DNA from: Thermodesulfobacteriota bacterium
Lineage (GTDB): Bacteria > Desulfobacterota > Desulfobacteria > Desulfobacterales > JAUWMJ01
Direction: 5' to 3'
Length of the DNA: 54,040 nucleotides
NCBI GenBank assembly: GCA_034189135.1
Contig: JAXHVO010000007.1
Span: 1 to 54,040 of the forward strand
The position numbers and the translations under genes are program-made. The notes under the pieces were generated by a model. That model did not search any database, was not told the origin of the DNA, and worked only from the letters and a program-made list of their open reading frames with translations. Position 1 is the first letter of the stretch, and every line of letters starts with the position of its first letter. This document shows positions 4,945 through 38,621 of this stretch, piece by piece.

Positions 4945-6090
4945 ATGAGTGAAAAACACCAGCGTTCATTAAAATACCTGATCGCCTCACAATACTTTTT
5001 GTATTTTGGTGTGCTGGGGATTTTTTTGCCCTATTTTAATCTATACTGCTATCACATCGGCTTTACCGGTTTTCAAATAGGAGCCCTTTCTGCCCTGAGA
5101 TCGGTGACCCTGGTTTTATTTTCCCTGGCCTGGGGAGTTCTGGCAGACCGTTTCCAAATCAGAAGACCCATATACATATTGTGCAATATTGCCAGCGCTC
5201 TGATCTGGATTTTTTATCTTTTTAGCGAAAACTTCTGGGTAATGCTTTTCATTACCGCTTTTTATGGCATGTTCTATGCCCCGATCATATCCTTTCTGGA
5301 AGCCTTTTCCATGGACGTTCTCGGCAAAGAAAAGAAAAATTATGGAAGTCTGAGAATGTGGGGATCCATCAGTTTTATCATAGTCGTCATTTCACTGGGG
5401 AAAATCATCGATTTTTTCTCTGTCCGCTTAATACTTGTATTGATTCTGGCCGGTTCCCTGTTACAGGCATCCATTTCCGTTAAAATACCAAATATCAAAA
5501 TTGCCAAAAAAGACCTTCTTTCACCGGATACAAAATCGCTGTTAAACACTCGGGTAATTATTTTTTTGTTTTGTGCCTTTTTAATGCTGGTCAGCCATGG
5601 GACCTACTACGGTTTCTTTTCCATACATCTGGAAAATCTGGGATACAGCAATACCTTCATAGGAATAACCTGGGCCCTGGCTTCAACAGCCGAAATAGTT
5701 GTAATGATTCAATCAGATAGAATATTTAAGGTCTTTTCACCTGAAAAAGTGCTTACTTTTTCATTTATAGTCGCCGCACTGAGATGGTGTATTCTCTTTT
5801 TTGCCACCTCCGAAACAATCATCCTTTTGTCACAGGTTTTACATGCGGTCACCTATGGCGCATTTCATATGGCAAGTATCCTTTACATCGATTCGCTGTC
5901 ACCGGATAAAAACAAGACTTTGGGACAGGCAGTAAATAATGCCGCCACCTATGGACTCGGATTAATGGTTGGATTTTTCCTCAGCGGCTGGCTGTATGAA
6001 AATATGGATACGTCTTTTTTGTTCATCATCAGCAGCCTGATTGCCATGGCGGGAGGCATAATATTCCAGGCTTTTCGGGGTGCTGAGTGA
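4945..6090 (+). CDS. Major facilitator superfamily transporter (HcaT/LacY-like group)
   Basis: This is an inner-membrane secondary transporter of 381 residues with about twelve predicted membrane helices, typical of the compact MFS_1-like (phenylpropionate permease, nucleoside permease) group. The loop between helices 2 and 3 carries the MFS motif A variant WGVLADRFQIRRP (near residues 65-77). The second half has a matching set of helices ending in a long hydrophobic tail. The substrate cannot be read from the sequence. The ribosome site is weak. The gene stands alone, convergent with the cyclase gene at 6347-8263. A decayed fragment of a paralogue lies at 22570-22695, which shows the family was once duplicated here. 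Confidence 0.85.
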   Translation: MSEKHQRSLKYLIASQYFLYFGVLGIFLPYFNLYCYHIGFTGFQIGALSALRSVTLVLFSLAWGVLADRFQIRRPIYILCNIASALIWIFYLFSENFWVMLFITAFYGMFYAPIISFLEAFSMDVLGKEKKNYGSLRMWGSISFIIVVISLGKIIDFFSVRLILVLILAGSLLQASISVKIPNIKIAKKDLLSPDTKSLLNTRVIIFLFCAFLMLVSHGTYYGFFSIHLENLGYSNTFIGITWALASTAEIVVMIQSDRIFKVFSPEKVLTFSFIVAALRWCILFFATSETIILLSQVLHAVTYGAFHMASILYIDSLSPDKNKTLGQAVNNAATYGLGLMVGFFLSGWLYENMDTSFLFIISSLIAMAGGIIFQAFRGAE

Positions 6091-15483: not shown

Positions 15484-16114
15484 TTACACTCTCCTTGACT
15501 TAAGCTATTTTACTTAAAGTACAACTTGCCATTGCCGTAACATTAAGTCAATTACAGATATTTAATACTTGGCTTTCAAAGAATAGGTTTTGGATACTAT
15601 TTCTGATTATCAGGTATTCGGCCATCAATAATTCTCGATAAAATTTTAACAAAACCGGAGTCAAGAAAAGCGAACAGCTCTCAACCGCATCCACCGCAAA
15701 GCTTTATACCTTGGATGTTTTCAAATTGGTATTTCGAGCATTTGATTTGTTTTTCCTCATTCGTTTACTATAAAAATGGGAAAATATGGCCCTTTCAGAG
15801 CAGTGAATAACGATAATATTGATGATTGAAAGCCGGAAATCATTTTCACAAAATCGGTCAAGTGCGCCGTCTGCAATCAATGAGGGGCCCTCGGCACTGC
15901 AAAAAAGCTGACGAGGACCCTCCACCCACTTTTGGCAAAAAGTATAAAAGACTCTGCGTTTTATTTTTTTCAAATAGTCAGCGTAATCCGAGGAGGTTAA
16001 GGGTGGAAATTGGATTCTGGAATCCTTTGTAATGTTTCCCCTATTTAAATCATCCCTAGTTCAGCACCGAACCGGAAATTCCGATGTTTATACTTCTGCC
16101 AGGGACTTTATCGG

Positions 16115-16170
16115 CAAAATTAGGTTATAACCTAATTTTGTCTTGACAATATTGGGTTATAACCTAATAA
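16115..16170 (+). promoter_or_regulatory. Orphan promoter with two palindromic operators (TA-type)
   Basis: A perfect 26-nt palindrome (16115-16140, core TTAGGTTATAACCTAA) is followed by a near-perfect second one (16150-16169, TATTGGGTTATAACCTAATA). The second lies inside the spacer of a strong promoter: TTGACA at 16143-16148, 16 bases, TAATAA at 16165-16170. Palindrome centres are 32 bp apart, about three helical turns. The design matches autoregulated toxin-antitoxin operons such as the HipB operators at 29419-29626, but no intact gene follows. Confidence 0.75.
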
Positions 16171-16501
16171 AATGTTCAAAACATGCTCAAAATCCCGGCT
16201 GTTCAACTTGTTAACAAAGGTGATACCTGTAAGGTTGTTTCCAACGGTGAGTTGAAAATAATGATAATCAGCGCGGATCACTGGTTGTCATTACTTCCGT
16301 GACAATGACTTGACGATTTAGTTCGACTTGTGCAGTTATAACAGTTGTCTTACATGTGTCTCGTTTTAAATGAAGAGACTGTCTGGGTGTATAAGCCCGC
16401 CTTCAGAACAAGGATGCGAGCTTTTCATCGCTTAAAACGGAATGAAAAACAATATAAATGGAAAAACGGTGAAATTCCTGGCCGGAAAATAAACTGGTAG
16501 A

Positions 16502-16569
16502 AGCTGCTTGCCTGATATTGAAACCACAACCTCAATTGAGATCTTAATTATCAACATCGGTAGCAAAAA
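16502..16569. repeat. Dispersed repeat, copy B (downstream of a giant cyclase gene)
   Basis: Matches 6189-6261 with few substitutions and one small gap (shared AAACCACAACCTCAATTGA). As with copy A, it sits within about 100 bp beyond the stop codon of a minus-strand cyclase-TPR gene. Confidence 0.7.
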
Positions 16570-16633
16570 GCGTAATATTGTCGTTATCGTCTATAACACA
16601 AGATGTTGAGGATGGAATTTTGAATGGTTTTTT

Positions 16634-19600
16634 TTAAAACGCGGCCAGTTCCTTTTCATACTTTTCCACCCACCCCTCAGCACCGCACTCTTTGAAAATT
16701 TCAATTGCTGTAGAGAGTTGTTTTCTGGCTTTCGAAGTGTCGCCTTTTCGTTTGAAAAATTTGGCATACAGCACCCGGCTCTTTGCTAAATGCCACATCA
16801 TGTGATTTTGTTCAGCCGTTTGGATGGCTCTTCTAATCCAGTTATCCGTTTCACGAAAATGGTGCTTATCACTATTCAATAGAATTTGTGCAATGAATCT
16901 TGTTTTCCATACTTTGGGATATTTATAAGTACCTTCAGCCATATACCTGTTTAGGACTTCCATATCGATATGCTTATCACCTGTCATCAGTGCTGCCTTT
17001 TCAACGCCGATTTTGTTTACGGCCATCCAGGAAGGGAAGGCATTGCCTTGTTCCAGCAGTTGCACGGCTACCTGATAATGGTGCCTGGATTGTTGATATT
17101 CACCAACTTCAAAATAGACCTCAGCCAAAAACCATCGTGCTACTGCACTCCACATGGATAAGTTGAGCTTTTCACACAAGGCAACTCCCTTTAATAAAGC
17201 TTTTATGGCTCCCTTGAGCCAACCCTTTCCATAATATGAAAATCCGAGGCTGGGATATGCAAAGGCTTTGGAATATGAATCACCGCTTTCTTCGGCATTT
17301 CGAATGGCGTCCTTTGCAACCAGGTACGCCTTATACATATTTCCAAGGGAGGTAAGCAGAAAGAGGCTTTCGTAACTTCTTACCCTGGCAATGCCCCAAA
17401 GATCGTTTGCCGCCTTACAAATATCGAGAGCCTGTTTGAAATTTCGCGAAGCCTTCTCAAATTCACAATTCAAACAACAAACGAAAGCCAGGCGCCAGTT
17501 TGCGATCAATAAAGAGTTGGTGTCATTAATTCGACCGGCTATCTTCACGGCATCTTCAAAATGTTTACACCCGTTGAAGTAATCCTCTTGGACCAATATC
17601 GCATAATTCCCTTTAATGGTGAGTATTGCGGGCAATTTTTCTTCATAATTCATCTGGTGGGCCAATTCAACGATCGGGTCAATCGCTTCTTTCGATTCCT
17701 CATAGTAGAGCATCTGTACAAAGTACAGACCGAGTATGGTTCTGGCATCAATGATCTCTTTTTGCCGTAGATCGGTGATGGGCAATTTCTCAAGATAGGT
17801 GACCCTTTTTTTGCAGTACTCGATCGCATCACCAATTGATGCGGTCTTTTCAGCCTTCTGGGCTGCTTGCATCGAATAGTAAGCGGCCTTGTCGTAATTC
17901 TCGGCCACCGCATAATGCCCGGCCAAATGTCCATAATGCTGCTCCAGATTCGGTTCATAAAGATCTTCAATAGCAAATGCGGTCTGCTGGTGAAGCTTTT
18001 TTTTTCGCTTGTTCAGTATGGATTCGTACACCGCATCGCGGGTCAACGCATGTTTGAAGATGTAGGTGGATTGCGGAAAGATGCCCCTTTCATAAATCAG
18101 TTCCAGATCCTTCAAAACCGACATATGGGACAGAAGATCACGTTCAAGCAGACCGGTCACCCGTCTGATCAGCTCATAATTGAACTCCCGCTCGATGACC
18201 GCACCGGTTTGAAGCACTTTTCTGGCCTCATTGGGCAAAGAGTCCACCCGGGCCATAATGATATCCTTGATGGTGGGAGGCACGGCCATTTTATCCAGGT
18301 CTTTCACCAAATGATAACGGCCGTTTTTGATCTCCATCATCTTTATTTCATAGAGAGCCTTGATAAACTCCTCAATGAAAAGAGGGATCCCTTCGGTCTG
18401 CTCGAGGATCAACTGTTCCAGATCCTGAGCAAATTCTTCTGTTTGCAGGATATGGGTGACCATGGCGCGGCTGTCCCGCTGTGAAAAACGATTCAGGTTC
18501 AGCTGGGTGTGATACGATTTTCCGCCCCACTTCGGCACGAACTCCAGCCGGTAGGTGAAGATAAGCAAGACTCGTGCCCCGGGTATGCTGTCCAGCAGAT
18601 GCTTTAAAACCTCCTCGGAACTCTGATCGATCCAATGCAGATCTTCGATAGCCATGACAATATGCCGTTTTTCCGCACCCCTGAGCACGATCGCCTTCAG
18701 AACTTCAGTAATCCTCTCCTTCTTTGCCTCAGGGCTTATGGGGAGTTTCTCAATACCGCTGTCTTTGACTGACAAAAGTTCTAAAAAATAGGGGAGGATA
18801 GACATTTCATCCATCCCCAACACCTCCAGGCCCTTTTTAACCTTTTCCCTGATCTTTTCATCACTCTCTCCGTCCTGAATATGAAAGTTGCCTTTCAGGA
18901 TGTCTATGATGGGATGATATGCCATGCCTCTTCCATAGGAAAGACACTTACCCTCAAGGAAGGTGATGTTTTCGTTGGTCACCGCTTTTCTGAACTCATA
19001 TAAAAGCCTCGATTTGCCCACACCGGCTTCAGCCGCAATGGAGAATGCCCGACCCCTGCCTTTCTTGGACATTTCGAAGCCATCCAGCATGATATCAATT
19101 TCGGGCTTTCTGGCCACAAGGGGTGTCAGGCCTCGTTCAGCGGTGACCTCAAACCTTGTTCTTCTGGAGCTGGGGGCGATTACCCGGTAGATTTTGAGAG
19201 GCTGTGTTTTGCCTTTAACTTCCTTTTCTCCCAGGCCCTCAAAGCGGAAGAATCCTTCGGTAAGCTTGAATGTCTCATCGGTCACGTAGCTGGTTCCCGG
19301 CTCTGCCAATCCTTCCATCCTGGAGGCTAAATTTACCGTATCACCAACTGCCTTAAACTCAACACGGAGGTCATTGCCCAGGGTGCCTACCACCACCGGA
19401 CCGGTGTGAATACCGATCCGCATCTTGAGTTGTGTGATGCCTGGTTTCTCCTGCTTGAGTTTGTCGCTGAATTTGGACATCTCCCGGTGAATGGCTATGG
19501 CGGACCGGATGGCCCGCTGAGGTGCGTCCTCCAAAGCGATGGGGGCGCCAAACAGGGCCATAATGCCGTCACCGGTCATCTCATTGACCGTGCCCTCGTA

Positions 19601-20002
19601 ATTGTGGACCTTATGGATGAGGATCTCATAGACCTGATCCATGATGTCGTAAGCCTCTTCAGAACCGAGGTGCTCCACCAGGCCGGTGAACCCCTCCATA
19701 TCGGAGAACATCACCGTGACCTGCTTGCGTTCGCCTTCGATTTTATTCCGTTGGGACAGGATTTTCTCTGTAAGGCCCTTGGGAAGATAGCGCTGAATTT
19801 TGTCTATCTTTTCGTCAAAGGAGAGATCTTTGGGGGTCGATTCAGAAGGAACAGTTAGGTTAAAGCCGCATCCACCGCAGAATTTGTGTGAAGGGGAATT
19901 ACTGTAACCGCACTCCGGGCAAATTTTTTCTAATTTGCCTCCACATTCTACACAAAAATTCACACCGGCAGAATTCTCAAACTGGCACTTGGGACATTTC
20001 AT
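16634..20002 (-). CDS. Giant signalling protein: zinc ribbons, class III cyclase, AAA ATPase, TPR
   Basis: The 1122-residue cytoplasmic protein starts with two zinc ribbons (CPKC/CVEC at residues 3-20, CPEC/CGGC at 28-45). A class III cyclase domain follows (about 92-275) with metal-binding Asp101 (FSDMEGFTGLVEHLG) and Asp145 (NEMTGDGIMALFG), and the transition-state loop DTVNLASRME. Next is an AAA16-type ATPase with P-loop AEAGVGKS (324-331) and Walker-B-like VMAIEDLHWID near 460. The C-terminal half (about 690-1122) is tetratricopeptide helices. This order resembles soluble mammalian adenylyl cyclase and many bacterial cyclase-ATPase proteins. Substrate and stimulus are unknown. GGAGG lies nine bases before the ATG. 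It is a close paralogue of 35250-38621, conserved along its full length. Confidence 0.93.
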   Translation of the reverse strand: MKCPKCQFENSAGVNFCVECGGKLEKICPECGYSNSPSHKFCGGCGFNLTVPSESTPKDLSFDEKIDKIQRYLPKGLTEKILSQRNKIEGERKQVTVMFSDMEGFTGLVEHLGSEEAYDIMDQVYEILIHKVHNYEGTVNEMTGDGIMALFGAPIALEDAPQRAIRSAIAIHREMSKFSDKLKQEKPGITQLKMRIGIHTGPVVVGTLGNDLRVEFKAVGDTVNLASRMEGLAEPGTSYVTDETFKLTEGFFRFEGLGEKEVKGKTQPLKIYRVIAPSSRRTRFEVTAERGLTPLVARKPEIDIMLDGFEMSKKGRGRAFSIAAEAGVGKSRLLYEFRKAVTNENITFLEGKCLSYGRGMAYHPIIDILKGNFHIQDGESDEKIREKVKKGLEVLGMDEMSILPYFLELLSVKDSGIEKLPISPEAKKERITEVLKAIVLRGAEKRHIVMAIEDLHWIDQSSEEVLKHLLDSIPGARVLLIFTYRLEFVPKWGGKSYHTQLNLNRFSQRDSRAMVTHILQTEEFAQDLEQLILEQTEGIPLFIEEFIKALYEIKMMEIKNGRYHLVKDLDKMAVPPTIKDIIMARVDSLPNEARKVLQTGAVIEREFNYELIRRVTGLLERDLLSHMSVLKDLELIYERGIFPQSTYIFKHALTRDAVYESILNKRKKKLHQQTAFAIEDLYEPNLEQHYGHLAGHYAVAENYDKAAYYSMQAAQKAEKTASIGDAIEYCKKRVTYLEKLPITDLRQKEIIDARTILGLYFVQMLYYEESKEAIDPIVELAHQMNYEEKLPAILTIKGNYAILVQEDYFNGCKHFEDAVKIAGRINDTNSLLIANWRLAFVCCLNCEFEKASRNFKQALDICKAANDLWGIARVRSYESLFLLTSLGNMYKAYLVAKDAIRNAEESGDSYSKAFAYPSLGFSYYGKGWLKGAIKALLKGVALCEKLNLSMWSAVARWFLAEVYFEVGEYQQSRHHYQVAVQLLEQGNAFPSWMAVNKIGVEKAALMTGDKHIDMEVLNRYMAEGTYKYPKVWKTRFIAQILLNSDKHHFRETDNWIRRAIQTAEQNHMMWHLAKSRVLYAKFFKRKGDTSKARKQLSTAIEIFKECGAEGWVEKYEKELAAF

Positions 20003-29418: not shown

Positions 29419-29626
29419 TACCGTTATAACGGTATTTTAATACCCTTCTTTGTATTCAAGACCTGCCGGATCAATTAAAACCTATATAATTGCCGTTATA
29501 ACGGCAATCAAAATAAAACATAATTTGACTTGACAAAATGCCGCAATAGCGGCAATAATAACCGATAAAATCGATTTCTATAAGAAAATTCGGGAATATT
29601 ACTAATAATTACCACTATGACGGCAA
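29419..29626 (+). promoter_or_regulatory. HipBST promoter with four palindromic operators
   Basis: Palindromes occur at 29419-29434 (TACCGTTATAACGGTA, perfect), 29489-29508 (ATTGCCGTTATAACGGCAAT, perfect) and 29539-29554 (TGCCGC..GCGGCA). A degenerate one at 29609-29626 includes the hipB start codon. The third lies between TTGACA (29530-29535) and an AATAAT -10 box (29554-29559). Centres are about 72, 48 and 71 bp apart. Multiple HipB dimers binding here would block transcription and translation initiation. Confidence 0.8.
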
Positions 29627-29877
29627 AAATAGATCATAATAATTTTAAACGTGTGGGCCGAATGATACTTTTTCACCGGAAAAAAGCCGATCTGTCACGA
29701 ATTGATCTGGCCATGGTTGCTGGAGTCGGAAAAACCGTCATCTACGACATTGAACACGGCAAAGATACAGTTCGTATTAAAACCCTGATAAAAATCCTAA
29801 ATGCGCTAAATATTACTATGTTTTTTGACAGCCCCATTATGAATCGTTTCATGGAAACCAAAGATGAAAAAAGCTGA
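29617..29877 (+). CDS. hipB: HipB-like antitoxin/repressor of a HipBST module
   Basis: The 86-residue protein is a Cro/C1-type helix-turn-helix factor: residues about 15-68 read GRMILFHRKKADLSRIDLAMVAG and then VGKTVIYDIEHGKDTVRI (parts quoted), followed by a short beta-strand region typical of HipB (ALNITMFF). In such modules it represses its own operon by binding the upstream palindromes and helps position the toxin complex. The next gene overlaps it by 14 bp, so translation is coupled. The start codon lies within a degenerate fourth operator, giving tight autorepression. In tripartite systems HipB alone may not neutralise the toxin, the small HipS doing so; that is known for E. coli and inferred here. 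Confidence 0.87.
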   Translation: MTAKIDHNNFKRVGRMILFHRKKADLSRIDLAMVAGVGKTVIYDIEHGKDTVRIKTLIKILNALNITMFFDSPIMNRFMETKDEKS

Positions 29878-30175
29878 AGTATTTGTTAATAACCGACGAT
29901 CCGGTATCCTGGAAGAAATTACGCCGGGTAAGAAGTATCAATTCATATACAACAAGGGATATTCAGGCCATCCGATTTCTCTGACCATGCCGATAGCAGA
30001 TACGCCATACATCTATGATCGATTTCCCCCTTTTTTCGAGGGCCTGTTACCGGAAGGATATAATCTTGATGCGCTTTTAAGGGTTTATAAAATTGACCGA
30101 AACGATCTTTTCCGCCAGCTTGTAGTTGTGGGAATGGACATGGTCGGTGCTGTGACGGTGAGAGAAATTAAATGA
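29864..30175 (+). CDS. hipS: HipS-like small protein (HipA N-subdomain)
   Basis: The 103-residue protein corresponds to the N-terminal subdomain 1 of HipA: KAEVFVNNRRSGILEEITPG, FIYNKGYSGHPISLTMP and the conserved FPPFFEGLLPEG (about residues 61-72). In ordinary HipA this piece is fused to the kinase; here it is a separate gene. In the E. coli HipBST system this small protein is the antitoxin that docks on the kinase. It overlaps hipB by 14 bp and hipT by 4 bp (ATGA), which fixes the operon order hipB-hipS-hipT. No frameshift signature is seen at the junction, so the split is a true gene structure. Confidence 0.88.
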   Translation: MKKAEVFVNNRRSGILEEITPGKKYQFIYNKGYSGHPISLTMPIADTPYIYDRFPPFFEGLLPEGYNLDALLRVYKIDRNDLFRQLVVVGMDMVGAVTVREIK

Positions 30176-31110
30176 ATACATGTCCGATCACCTATCAATC
30201 CTGTGAAGGCAAGTATTCCATTCAAGGTCTCAAGCGGTTATCCCCAAGATTGTATGATTTGAAAGATTTTCCCTATACTGCCGGGGAACAAATACATGAA
30301 GCCGCTGTCCGATCAACCAAAATATCTATTCAGGGAATCCAGCCGAAACTTAGTGCCATACTCAATGTCAGCCGGCAACGATTTAAAATTGTCGATATAG
30401 GTGGCCGCTATATCCTGAAACCGCAGAACCCGCAATTTCCACTGCTTCCTGAAAATGAAGATCTGTCCATGCGTTTAGCCGGTCTTGCCGGTGTTGATGT
30501 TCCCCTGCATGGCCTGTTATATTCCAAAGACGGCTCCTTTACTTACTTTATAAAGCGGTTCGACCGAATCGGTCGGAATAAAAAGGTTGCCGTTGAAGAT
30601 TTTTCACAACTTCTTGGTTTGTCCCGTGATACCAAATATGATGCTTCCATGGAAAAAGTAGCCACCGTTATAGAAAAATACTGCACATTTCCCGCCATAG
30701 AAAAAATAAAACTGTTTAGACTTACACTGGTTAATTATCTTATTGGCAACGAAGATATGCACCTGAAAAATTTTTCCTTGATCACGCAAGATGGTAAAAT
30801 TGAACTTTCTCCGGCATATGATATTATCAATACAACCATTGCCCTATCCAACCCTCAGGAAGAAATTGCTTTACCCGTGATGGGTAAAAAACGAAAACTT
30901 GACCGCTCCAACCTAATCGATTATTACGGCAAAGATCGATTGAAATTAACCGATAAGGCCATCAAAACAGTACTCGATAAAATTGAATCGGTTTTTGAGT
31001 TATGGACGCATTTGATCGTAAACAGCTTTTTAAACTCTGAACTAAAGGACAACTATTCAAAACTGCTGGAGGATAGAAAATCTTCCGTTTGGCTGCAGAC
31101 AAATAAGTGA
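30172..31110 (+). CDS. hipT: HipT-like serine/threonine kinase toxin (HipA C-domain)
   Basis: The 312-residue HipA-type kinase lacks the N-subdomain supplied by hipS. It shows the Gly-rich loop STKISIQGIQPKL (residues 48-60), the ATP-lysine segment YILKPQ, the catalytic loop GNEDMHLKNFSLI (Asp195, Asn200) and the metal-binding Asp217 in SPAYDI. HipA/HipT kinases phosphorylate aminoacyl-tRNA synthetases (GltX for HipA, TrpS for E. coli HipT) and so stop translation. E. coli HipT is regulated by two autophosphorylated serines in its loop; here the corresponding positions read Lys50 and Ser52, so at most one is conserved. The target in this organism cannot be read from sequence. Length and motifs indicate an active enzyme. 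Confidence 0.88.
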   Translation: MNTCPITYQSCEGKYSIQGLKRLSPRLYDLKDFPYTAGEQIHEAAVRSTKISIQGIQPKLSAILNVSRQRFKIVDIGGRYILKPQNPQFPLLPENEDLSMRLAGLAGVDVPLHGLLYSKDGSFTYFIKRFDRIGRNKKVAVEDFSQLLGLSRDTKYDASMEKVATVIEKYCTFPAIEKIKLFRLTLVNYLIGNEDMHLKNFSLITQDGKIELSPAYDIINTTIALSNPQEEIALPVMGKKRKLDRSNLIDYYGKDRLKLTDKAIKTVLDKIESVFELWTHLIVNSFLNSELKDNYSKLLEDRKSSVWLQTNK

Positions 31111-35249: not shown

Positions 35250-38200
35250 TTATATAAATGTTTCCAATTGCTTTTCATATTTTTCCACCCAACCATCGGC
35301 TCCGCACGCCGTAAAGGTTTCAACTGCCATTTCCAGGTATTGTCGTTCTTTTTGATGCTCTCCACATTTATTCAGAAAATTCGAATACAGGATATAATCT
35401 TTTGCCAGATGCCATCGCATGCCATTTCGTTCATCGGCGATAATAGCCCTCTTTATCCATTTGCGGGCTTCAGGACGATGTTCAGCATTCCCATATAACA
35501 AAATTTCCCCGATGGTGTTTGCCATCCAACCTTCAAAAATCTTTATGCGACTATTCTCATATTTATGCGTTAACTCATCGATTGTACTGTCATACTGCCC
35601 CATATAAACCTCGGTCCGTGTCAACAATAACAATCCCATATGTATCCATGATGGAATTTTTATGCTAGCTCTAACCATGGAAATCATTTCTAAAAAATAT
35701 TTGCGTGAGTTTTCGAACTCCCTCGTTTCAAAAAAGATTAAACCCAGATAAAGAGACGCGTATGCCGCCCAAGCGTAGTTCGATCTCTTTCGACAGATCT
35801 CGACACCTTCTAAAAGACGGGGTATTGCCTCATCCAACAAGCCTTGATAAAAACAGACGACACCAAAGCCGGAATCAGCCATTCCGATCGTAACCAGTTC
35901 ATTGCTTTGTTGGGCTGCTTCAACTGCCTCTAAAATAGATTCTCTGGCTTTCTGTAATTTGCCCTCGAAACAGTACGTGTGTGCACCGATCCAACTTTTA
36001 GTGGTTGCAATCAGACCTGGTCTCTTGACGGATTCCATGAGTGCAATACATCTGTTGTGAGAAAAAAGCGATTCATCGAACTGACACTGCCAGGCTGAAG
36101 TCAAGCCGATAAAGTAACCGGCTATCCAAAAGAATACATGATTGGATAGTCTCTCGGACAACGCCATCGCTTTCTTCATGGTCGCCAGTCCCTTTAGATA
36201 ATCTTCCTCCACCCATAAGACATATGCACCTACTGCAGTATAAATGGCCGGTAGCATTTTTTCATAATTCATTGTTTCAGCCAGTTCAACGATGGGGCTC
36301 ACGGCTTCCATCGCTTGTGATGGTTGTCCTAAATACAAATGGTAGCCTGCCAGTGCCGCACGGACATCAATGATCTTCTTCGATACAGCGTCGGTTTTTG
36401 GCATCCGCTCAAGGCAAAAGATAACGCTTTTCGAATGGTCGATGGCTTCTTTGTATGAAATCGATCGGACGGCTCTTTTTGCCGCCAGCTTAGCGTATTC
36501 TGCACCCTTTTCGTAAAGACCGCCGGCGATAAAGTGATCCACCAGCAAACCGTAATGTTCCTCTATGTTCTTCTCGTATATCTGTTCGATGGCTAGGCCG
36601 ATTTTGGCATGTAAAGTTCTTTGTTTCTCCGGCAAGATGGCGTTGTACAATACTTCGCGGGTTAGAGCATGCTTAAACACATAAGTGGTATCCGGAAAGA
36701 TGCCACGTTCATAGACAAGTTCCACATCTTTTAACAGGGACAAATTAACCAGCAGCTCACGTTCAGGCAAACCGGTGACCTGTTTAATCAATCCGTAGCT
36801 GAACTCTCTTTCAATTACAGCGCCGTTTCGAAGCACCCCCCGGGCTTCTTCAGGTAATGCATCCACCCGTGCCATAATCACATCCTGAATCGTAGAAGGG
36901 ACCGCGACCGCATCCAACTCTTTTACCAAACGGTAGCGCCCTCTGTCTCTGGTGATAATTTTAAGTTCTTTAAGAGACTGCAAATATTCTTCAATAAAAA
37001 ACGGAACCCCTTCGGCCCGTTGTAGCAGAAGATCGACCAGCGAGGGATCAATGGCATCTGTGGCCAGGATGCTTTTTATCATGTTCAGGATTTGTCGGTT
37101 GGTGAGCCGCAGCAGGTTGATCTGGTTGACGTAGGATTTTCCAGACAAATTGGCAACACCTTCTGGTCGATAGGTCAATATGAGAAGTACACGATGACCG
37201 GAAATGCTGCTGATCAGATCCTTGATCATCTCTTCCGAGCTTTTATCCATCCAGTGCAAATCCTCGATCGCCAGCACCAGCGGCCTTATGGCGGATCCTT
37301 TTAAAACGAGAAGCTTGACAGCTTCAAAAATACGATCTTTCTTTGTTTCAGGGCTCAGGGGGATATCATCAATGCCGCTATCCTTTACAGACAAGACCTC
37401 AAGAAGATATGGCAGCGTCAGGTTCTCATCAGCCTCATAGGCTTTCAGACCTGCTTTCACCTTTTTCCTGGCCGCTTCACTTGACTCATCATCTGTAATG
37501 GCAAATTCGGATTTGAGAATATCAGCCACCGGGTGATAGGGAAGCGTTCTGCTGTATGAAAAGCAGCGTCCCTCGAAAAAGGTGGCATCTTCATTGAGAA
37601 TAAGCTTTCTAAACTCATAAAGCAGCCGGGATTTACCCATGCCTGCCTCAGCAACCATCAGTACAGTTTGGCCGCTTCCCTCCCTGGCACGATCAAAGCT
37701 GTCCATCAAAAGCTCTAACTCACGCCCTCTGCCGATAAAGGGCGTCAAACCGCTCTCGGCGTTGACATCGAATCGTGTTCTTCTCATGCTGGGCGATACC
37801 ACACGGTACACGGCCACCGGCTGATTCTTGCCTTTGACTGTTCTCTGCCCCTGGGATTCAAAGCGGAACAAGCCTTCGGTTAATTTAAAGGTATTCTCAG
37901 AGGTATAGGTTGTACCAGGTGCTGCCAGACTTTCTATTCTGGAAGCCAGATTAACCGTATCGCCGACCGCTTTAAACTCCATGTGAAGATCATTTCCCAA
38001 GGTTCCTACGACCACAGAACCTGTATGAATTCCAATTCGCATTCTCAATGGACTGATCGTTTTTTTCTCGTTTTTCAAAGTTTCATCGAATTTCGCCATT
38101 TCTCGATGAATAGCCAGGGAAGAACGAATCGCTCGTTGAGGCGCATCCTCCAATGCAATGGGGGCACCAAAAAAGGCTAATATTCCATCACCCGTCATTT

Positions 38201-38621
38201 CATTTACAGTTCCCCCATAGTCATGAACCTTATGAATAAGTATTTCATAGACCTTGTCCATGATAACATAGGCATCTTCCGGGCCGAGTTTTTCAGAAAG
38301 CCTAGTAAAACCTTCCATATCACAGAACATCACGGTGACCTGCTTGCGCTCACCTTCAATTCTGTCTCTTTGAGCCAAAATCTTTTCGGTTAAACCTTTG
38401 GGAAGATATTTTTGGATTTTGTCTAATTTCTCATCAAAGGAAAGATCTTTAGGAAGAGGTTCTGAAGATATGGTGAGATTGTGGCCGCACTCACCACAGA
38501 ATTTAAAACCTGGTGAATTGCTGAACCCGCATTTAGAGCAAATTGTTTCTAACTTATTGCCACATTCAACACAGAATTTCATACCTTCCGGGTTATCAAA
38601 CTGACACTTTGGGCATTGCAT
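35250..38621 (-). CDS. Giant zinc-ribbon/class III cyclase/ATPase/TPR protein, paralogue
   Basis: The 1123-residue protein is the full-length paralogue of 16634-20002, with the same order of parts: two zinc ribbons (CPKC/CVEC and CSKC/CGEC, residues 3-45), a cyclase domain with FCDMEGFTRLSEKLG and NEMTGDGILAFFG, an ATPase with AEAGMGKS and LAIEDLHWMD, then TPR helices. Near-identity is greatest in the cyclase domain, while the TPR half has diverged, suggesting the two copies answer to different signals. A GGAGG ribosome site precedes the ATG. It is not flanked by the AAACCACAACCTC repeat that follows the other copy. The catalytic Asp residues are intact, so it should be enzymatically active. 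Nucleotide specificity is unknown. Confidence 0.93.
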   Translation of the reverse strand: MQCPKCQFDNPEGMKFCVECGNKLETICSKCGFSNSPGFKFCGECGHNLTISSEPLPKDLSFDEKLDKIQKYLPKGLTEKILAQRDRIEGERKQVTVMFCDMEGFTRLSEKLGPEDAYVIMDKVYEILIHKVHDYGGTVNEMTGDGILAFFGAPIALEDAPQRAIRSSLAIHREMAKFDETLKNEKKTISPLRMRIGIHTGSVVVGTLGNDLHMEFKAVGDTVNLASRIESLAAPGTTYTSENTFKLTEGLFRFESQGQRTVKGKNQPVAVYRVVSPSMRRTRFDVNAESGLTPFIGRGRELELLMDSFDRAREGSGQTVLMVAEAGMGKSRLLYEFRKLILNEDATFFEGRCFSYSRTLPYHPVADILKSEFAITDDESSEAARKKVKAGLKAYEADENLTLPYLLEVLSVKDSGIDDIPLSPETKKDRIFEAVKLLVLKGSAIRPLVLAIEDLHWMDKSSEEMIKDLISSISGHRVLLILTYRPEGVANLSGKSYVNQINLLRLTNRQILNMIKSILATDAIDPSLVDLLLQRAEGVPFFIEEYLQSLKELKIITRDRGRYRLVKELDAVAVPSTIQDVIMARVDALPEEARGVLRNGAVIEREFSYGLIKQVTGLPERELLVNLSLLKDVELVYERGIFPDTTYVFKHALTREVLYNAILPEKQRTLHAKIGLAIEQIYEKNIEEHYGLLVDHFIAGGLYEKGAEYAKLAAKRAVRSISYKEAIDHSKSVIFCLERMPKTDAVSKKIIDVRAALAGYHLYLGQPSQAMEAVSPIVELAETMNYEKMLPAIYTAVGAYVLWVEEDYLKGLATMKKAMALSERLSNHVFFWIAGYFIGLTSAWQCQFDESLFSHNRCIALMESVKRPGLIATTKSWIGAHTYCFEGKLQKARESILEAVEAAQQSNELVTIGMADSGFGVVCFYQGLLDEAIPRLLEGVEICRKRSNYAWAAYASLYLGLIFFETREFENSRKYFLEMISMVRASIKIPSWIHMGLLLLTRTEVYMGQYDSTIDELTHKYENSRIKIFEGWMANTIGEILLYGNAEHRPEARKWIKRAIIADERNGMRWHLAKDYILYSNFLNKCGEHQKERQYLEMAVETFTACGADGWVEKYEKQLETFI

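Follow-up and report, generated by a model that had tools for sequence, protein, structure and literature searches.

The window, a stretch of 54,040 nucleotides, carries at 16115-16140 a perfect 26-nt palindrome, CAAAATTAGGTTATAACCTAATTTTG, the longest perfect palindrome found anywhere in it. A second copy, 91% identical (22-nt register), begins 32 bp further on. The palindrome and the 32-bp spacing had both been noted in the first-pass annotation and are confirmed; in 60 first-order Markov windows the longest palindrome averaged 16.0 nt and never exceeded 24 nt. TTGACA at 16143-16148 is followed, after a 16-nt spacer, by TAATAA at 16165-16170, a promoter missed by the consensus scanner because it requires the second hexamer to end in T. 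Hexamers and spacer are as first annotated, but the -10-like hexamer straddles a deletion junction; in close intact relatives the spacer is 17 nt long and the hexamer is TATATT. Alignment to intact cassettes defined two operator units on the forward strand: unit 1 (16113-16144, 32 bp, aligned from -66 onward), which comprises half-sites 1 and 2 and holds the perfect palindrome, and unit 2 (16145-16169), which goes with the -35 TTGACA and whose right arm is missing from the window.

The DNA at 16163-16302, on the same strand, is homologous to the 3′ end of a gene for an AAA_14-DUF4143 ATPase (about 45 codons and the stop), with one extra base near 16174 that disrupts the old reading frame. A predicted 39-aa ORF within it (16183-16302, forward strand) corresponds in frame to the ATPase C-terminus. 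This ORF had been described as resembling an antitoxin tail, and a Phd-like type II antitoxin was considered; both readings were given up, since the ORF matches the ATPase 3′ end in 24 loci and no Pfam or NCBIfam family up to E = 1. No intact forward-strand ORF of at least 60 aa, such as a neighbouring toxin gene, lies between it and 16634. An RNA element was also considered and rejected: the window gave no Rfam match at the gathering score, and in intact loci the arms sit 5′ of the predicted transcript start.

Stretches around the site (15781-15885, 16334-16443 and 16496-16554) recur as partial copies at other places in this genome or in the genus and resemble dispersed intergenic repeats. 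Two large ORFs, 16634-20002 and 35250-38621 (minus strand), are 1122 and 1123 aa long; they look paralogous to each other and by eye resemble zinc-ribbon, cyclase, ATPase and repeat proteins.

The remnant and its intact relatives

A DNA search with 16060-16640 in 146 relatives gave two informative genomes, one of the same genus (G002) and one of the same order (G038), as well as one short match each in G035 and G067. In both informative genomes, the counterparts of the operator and of the DNA beyond 16163 are separated by about 1.1 kb, and an intact ORF (404 or 406 aa) lies between them. The tail was compared at the 24 loci with a tail match, and its DNA identity to the 3′ end of the ATPase gene is 72-88% for the 17 close homologues among them and 60-74% for the other 7, which are more distant. 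The left homology stops at 16169 (-10 from the ATG) and the right homology begins at 16163 (about 138 bases before the end of the stop), so that a 7-bp overlap, CCTAATA, at the junction (16163-16169, forward strand) is common to both. Relative to the close intact relative L025, about 1.09 kb is missing between operator and tail. The remaining pieces are homologous to both ends of the intact cassette, with order and orientation kept. The AAA_14 and DUF4143 domains are absent and only the C-terminal tail is left; the window copy is therefore a relic and not a working member of PDC-S01, the candidate defence family of the intact genes. Very likely, in our view, an internal deletion in a single-gene cassette for an AAA_14-DUF4143 ATPase (PDC-S01) left the site as a scar. 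The earlier idea of a last trace of a lost toxin-antitoxin operon was right about a lost gene whose promoter and operator were kept, but the gene belongs to the ATPase family and not to a toxin-antitoxin system.

Homology shows that the promoter-operator of the cassette (two 32-bp units with four alternating half-sites) is still present but for its final arm, that ~1.09 kb of the ATPase gene has been lost, and that the last ~45 codons are left behind a one-base frameshift. Slippage between short direct repeats may have caused the loss, to judge from one relative: in L025 an 8-bp direct repeat, GCCTTATA, is found at both breakpoints, a length reached in 7 of 300 shuffles. In the other 11 of the 12 intact cassettes examined the breakpoint repeats are no longer than chance, and direct repeats were rejected as a general cause of the deletions.

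The palindrome core, TTAGGTTATAACCTAA, was searched for in the whole 4.6-Mb genome, as had been proposed. No third site with fewer than three mismatches was found, and the site is therefore not the operator of a regulon; the operator sequence model also matches the window site alone in this genome. The window element is probably inert, because the gene body is gone and no protein of the same operator type is encoded elsewhere in the genome. Expression of the 39-aa peptide is still conceivable, as its ORF retains a start codon close to the promoter.

The ATPase and its promoter-operator

The protein of the intact relatives has about 405 aa, with AAA_14 (PF13173) and DUF4143 (PF13635) domains (P0001, P0002). 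It matches the PADLOC single-gene phage-defence candidate PDC-S01 (E 6e-52), and this match was found for 25/25 aligned homologues. A sequence search for solved relatives of the ATPase gave none that was meaningful. In the AlphaFold2 model of the intact protein (pLDDT 88.8, pTM 0.90), residues 1-292 form an AAA domain and a winged helix and resemble 2qen (Z 14.5) and 2fna (Z 14.1). The C-terminal domain was folded separately because the structural alignments reach only residues ~1-290; alone, it gave a pLDDT of 93.5, with McrC and EcoT38I as the nearest Foldseek matches, all at E above 0.001. E332, D334, E348 and K350 are invariant in 25 sequences and, in our reading, are a putative PD-(D/E)XK site.

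The genome of the window encodes four other, more distant members of the family (26-41% identity). Upstream of one of these paralogues (74878-75963; L097, G000:C103), a long inverted repeat of ~24 nt per arm has TTGACA in its loop and the ATG directly after it; this would be a further palindromic promoter in the same genome, of a distinct type and likewise predicted to be leaderless. A foreign operator type, the GACTATTTTTCA type, was also seen within the family. Protein records on mobile replicons comprised two from plasmids (36-38%) and four from phages (23-28%), and the window DNA was found in no plasmid; spread on plasmids or phages was rejected on these grounds.

Relatives were collected by a scan of genome contigs (44, in records labelled with several phyla), and more came from a draw of 395 genomes of the phylum; handles apparently of one assembly (same contig numbers and lengths) were counted once. 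The operator analysis used the 65 loci with a usable start region, which are not all independent because some are orthologous copies. TTGAC was found 34 to 38 bases 5′ of the ATG in 51 of the 65 homologues, compared with 1 of 296 control placements further upstream. Among the 14 loci without TTGAC at this place, 12 are at 41% identity or less; the others are L029 (83%, with TTGATA) and L077 (start not resolved). The -10 sits 6 or 7 bases before the ATG in 43 of the 48 loci where it could be scored. From the promoter consensus, the transcript is predicted to start about at the ATG, which would make the mRNA leaderless.

The two 32-bp units contain four half-sites in alternating orientation. Arms of the same locus match each other better than swapped arms do (central arms, 6.75 versus 4.81 of 9 positions; 0/5000 permutations, 53 loci), and the outer right arm pair is weaker in the 15 loci below 50% identity (220/5000 permutations). 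Covariation is claimed for this wider set of 53 loci; the 15 closest operators show none above shuffling (80.6% of cells paired, shuffled 80.6%). Distance between operators correlates best with residues about 151-270 of the protein, the peak window being 166-195 (lid and winged helix). For residues 207-270, the partial r was 0.368 (0/2000 Mantel permutations); the loci are not independent, and the signal was weaker in a thinned set of 35 (partial r 0.201, 18/2000). The co-variation of the half-sites, together with a divergence that tracks the lid and winged-helix region, suggests autoregulation. On balance we favour a model in which the intact ATPase binds the half-sites via its winged-helix region and represses its own promoter, with the transcript starting about at the ATG.

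Cassette borders and recurrent scars

Among 15 close cassettes (103 pairs, with two same-site pairs left out), identity per base at the left border is 0.34 at -67, 0.87 at -66 and 1.0 at -65. At the right border, 65 pairs give 1.0 for the first base of the stop codon and 0.34 just past the stop, then 0.34-0.55 over five bases before a background near 0.25 is reached. The 50-base flanks are at 0.16-0.42 identity in 21 pairs whose third codon positions agree at 74-86%. A 22nd pair, L028/L031, has the right flank in common (0.90) and not the left (0.22), and the left side was therefore rearranged in one of the two. L040-L044, a second clade whose operator differs (taxon labels: Atribacteria, KSB1 or unnamed), show the same pattern, with third positions at 0.76-0.89 and flanks at 0.20-0.46 (10 pairs); labels of single contigs may be wrong, because the carriers are mostly metagenome bins. 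By pairwise BLAST, 94 of 153 pairs begin between -65 and -69, the remainder including more distant pairs with a shorter alignment and two that share more of their flanks. L025, L038 and L060 have a short stretch to the left of the operator in common, weakly present in the window too, although their neighbouring genes differ; the unit may thus extend further left in that subgroup.

Sharp borders within unrelated flanks, a hallmark of mobile elements, are found for the intact cassettes. In the window's genome, both flanks of the G002 copy lie 109 bp apart on contig C70 (G000:C70) with no cassette between them. This empty site could equally possibly reflect a loss in the window's lineage, and its exact insertion point is unreadable. 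The cassette flanks inspected by eye showed neither terminal repeats nor target-site duplications. There is no known transposase or recombinase, the sole cassette ORF being the ATPase, with AAA_14 and DUF4143 as its only Pfam domains above cut-off.

Applied to 389 genomes of the order, the operator sequence model detected 17 distinct sites, spread over 14 genomes: 10 at which the ORF or its beginning is present (a contig end truncates 3 of them), 6 without a gene body and 1 that was left unjudged (G676:C72). The operator is fused to a tail at five sites with four junctions. Counted from the ATG and from the stop, respectively, these lie at -10/-138 in the window, +1/-157 in G531, +5/-176 in G537 and -6/-121 in the two copies of G676. 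Left breakpoints near the ATG are partly expected because the search favours relics that have kept the operator; the clustering of the right breakpoints has no such explanation.

We tentatively propose that PDC-S01 genes, at least those of this subfamily, may be sharply bounded single-gene mobile elements. The four-half-site operator would be the left end and at the same time a portable leaderless promoter that needs no host-specific ribosome-binding site, the ATPase-nuclease would repress itself via the half-sites and take part in its own movement, and the operator-plus-tail pieces would be internal-deletion derivatives.

Such pieces might instead resemble MITEs, that is, non-autonomous derivatives with both ends of the mobile element, moved in trans by full-length copies. 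This is unlikely, in our view. Both ends were kept every time at the five sites and four junctions, and the G531 piece has the same borders as full cassettes; the window piece, however, is single-copy, and that of G537 lies beside the same upstream flank as the intact G038 copy, which argues that it arose in place. G676 has two near-identical copies of one operator-plus-tail piece (L180, G676:C8, about 760-1100 and 5350-5690), but these belong to a repeat of ~265 bp that takes in flanking sequence and may be an ordinary duplication, and G676 was rejected as clean proof of such an element.

There is little to recommend a second alternative, that operator and 39-aa peptide were kept for a function, as a leaderless mini-gene for a peptide that consists of the end of the nuclease domain and counteracts full-length ATPases. 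The ATG of the window ORF does lie 12 bases past the -10-like hexamer, and the ORF reads to the native stop, but the piece is frameshifted relative to the junction and the genome has no cognate full-length gene of this operator type. Similarly, G531 has an intact operator and behind it an ATG (L149, G531:C44; locus position 1357, minus strand) in frame with the last 52 codons, giving a 53-aa mini-ORF, but the pieces of G676 and G537, as we read them, have no such in-frame start.

Comparison with known systems

The window also contains a HipBST-like operon at 29419-31110, whose HipB-, HipS- and HipT-like genes (29617-31110) were confirmed by matches to HTH_3, HipA N-terminal and HipA C-terminal families; perfect palindromes, 16 and 20 nt long, precede the genes. 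Its operator (29419-29508) is like the site studied here in its GTTATAAC centre and in having palindromes in the promoter region, and unlike it in the neighbouring bases and in the gene family. The layout had been said to copy the HipBST operators; this applies to the shared 8-nt centre and not to the flanking bases, which are AGGTTATAACCT at 16115-16170 and CCGTTATAACGG at the HipBST operators. GTTATAAC occurs five times in the window, versus 0.48 expected: twice in the 16115-16170 region, once at 16335 (within one of the repeat-like stretches) and twice at the HipBST promoter. The 15 closest operators conserve gTT, the left portion of this centre. A toxin-antitoxin remnant, or a decoy that titrates the window's HipB, could draw on the common centre and on the presence of the hip genes, yet is highly implausible, since the tail is ATPase sequence, only the 8-nt centre is common, and GTTATAAC occurs in the operator region of 0/65 intact homologues. 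A HipB operator was rejected because the half-sites are not those of the HipBST operators, and a HipB regulon because there is no third core site with fewer than three mismatches in the genome.

The interest of the site lies in the family: the gene is very common and its function unproven, its borders are sharp, and its promoter is portable, probably self-regulated and predicted to be leaderless. A portable promoter-operator whose half-sites change with the presumed DNA-binding region, and borders sharp to the base, provide handles on the control and the spread of PDC-S01-type genes, which become testable in vitro. Conserved operator and borders also allow the scars of lost copies to be recognized, as in the window.

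PDC-S01 is listed as the fourth most common defence entry across prokaryotes, with validation pending for most such candidates (PMC12988326, as seen in part), and an excerpt of a second report names it the most frequent individual locus in rumen genomes (PMC13356809). In the sections accessible to us, the open-licence literature on PDC-S01 and DUF4143 holds no description of the operator and borders of the cassette: the accounts of PDC-S01 give neither a twin-palindrome leaderless promoter nor sharp borders, and DUF4143 appears in a table row on Thermus TT_P0211. Compared with a PDC-S01 gene, the window has the operator and the tail, without the ATPase body.

The archaeal STAND-type ATPases with a winged helix, PABY2304 (2qen) and SSO1545 (2fna), align structurally to residues 1-292 of the intact cassette protein at 13-15% identity; the cassette protein differs by an additional C-terminal nuclease-like domain. 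RptR, described in the available text of PMC12255303 as the autorepressor of a phage-defence island, offers a parallel: its gene lies in a defence locus, and it binds palindromic repeats in its own promoter. As described there, RptR is a separate small regulator with 6-bp sites, whereas here the presumed repressor would be the ATPase itself, with four longer half-sites.
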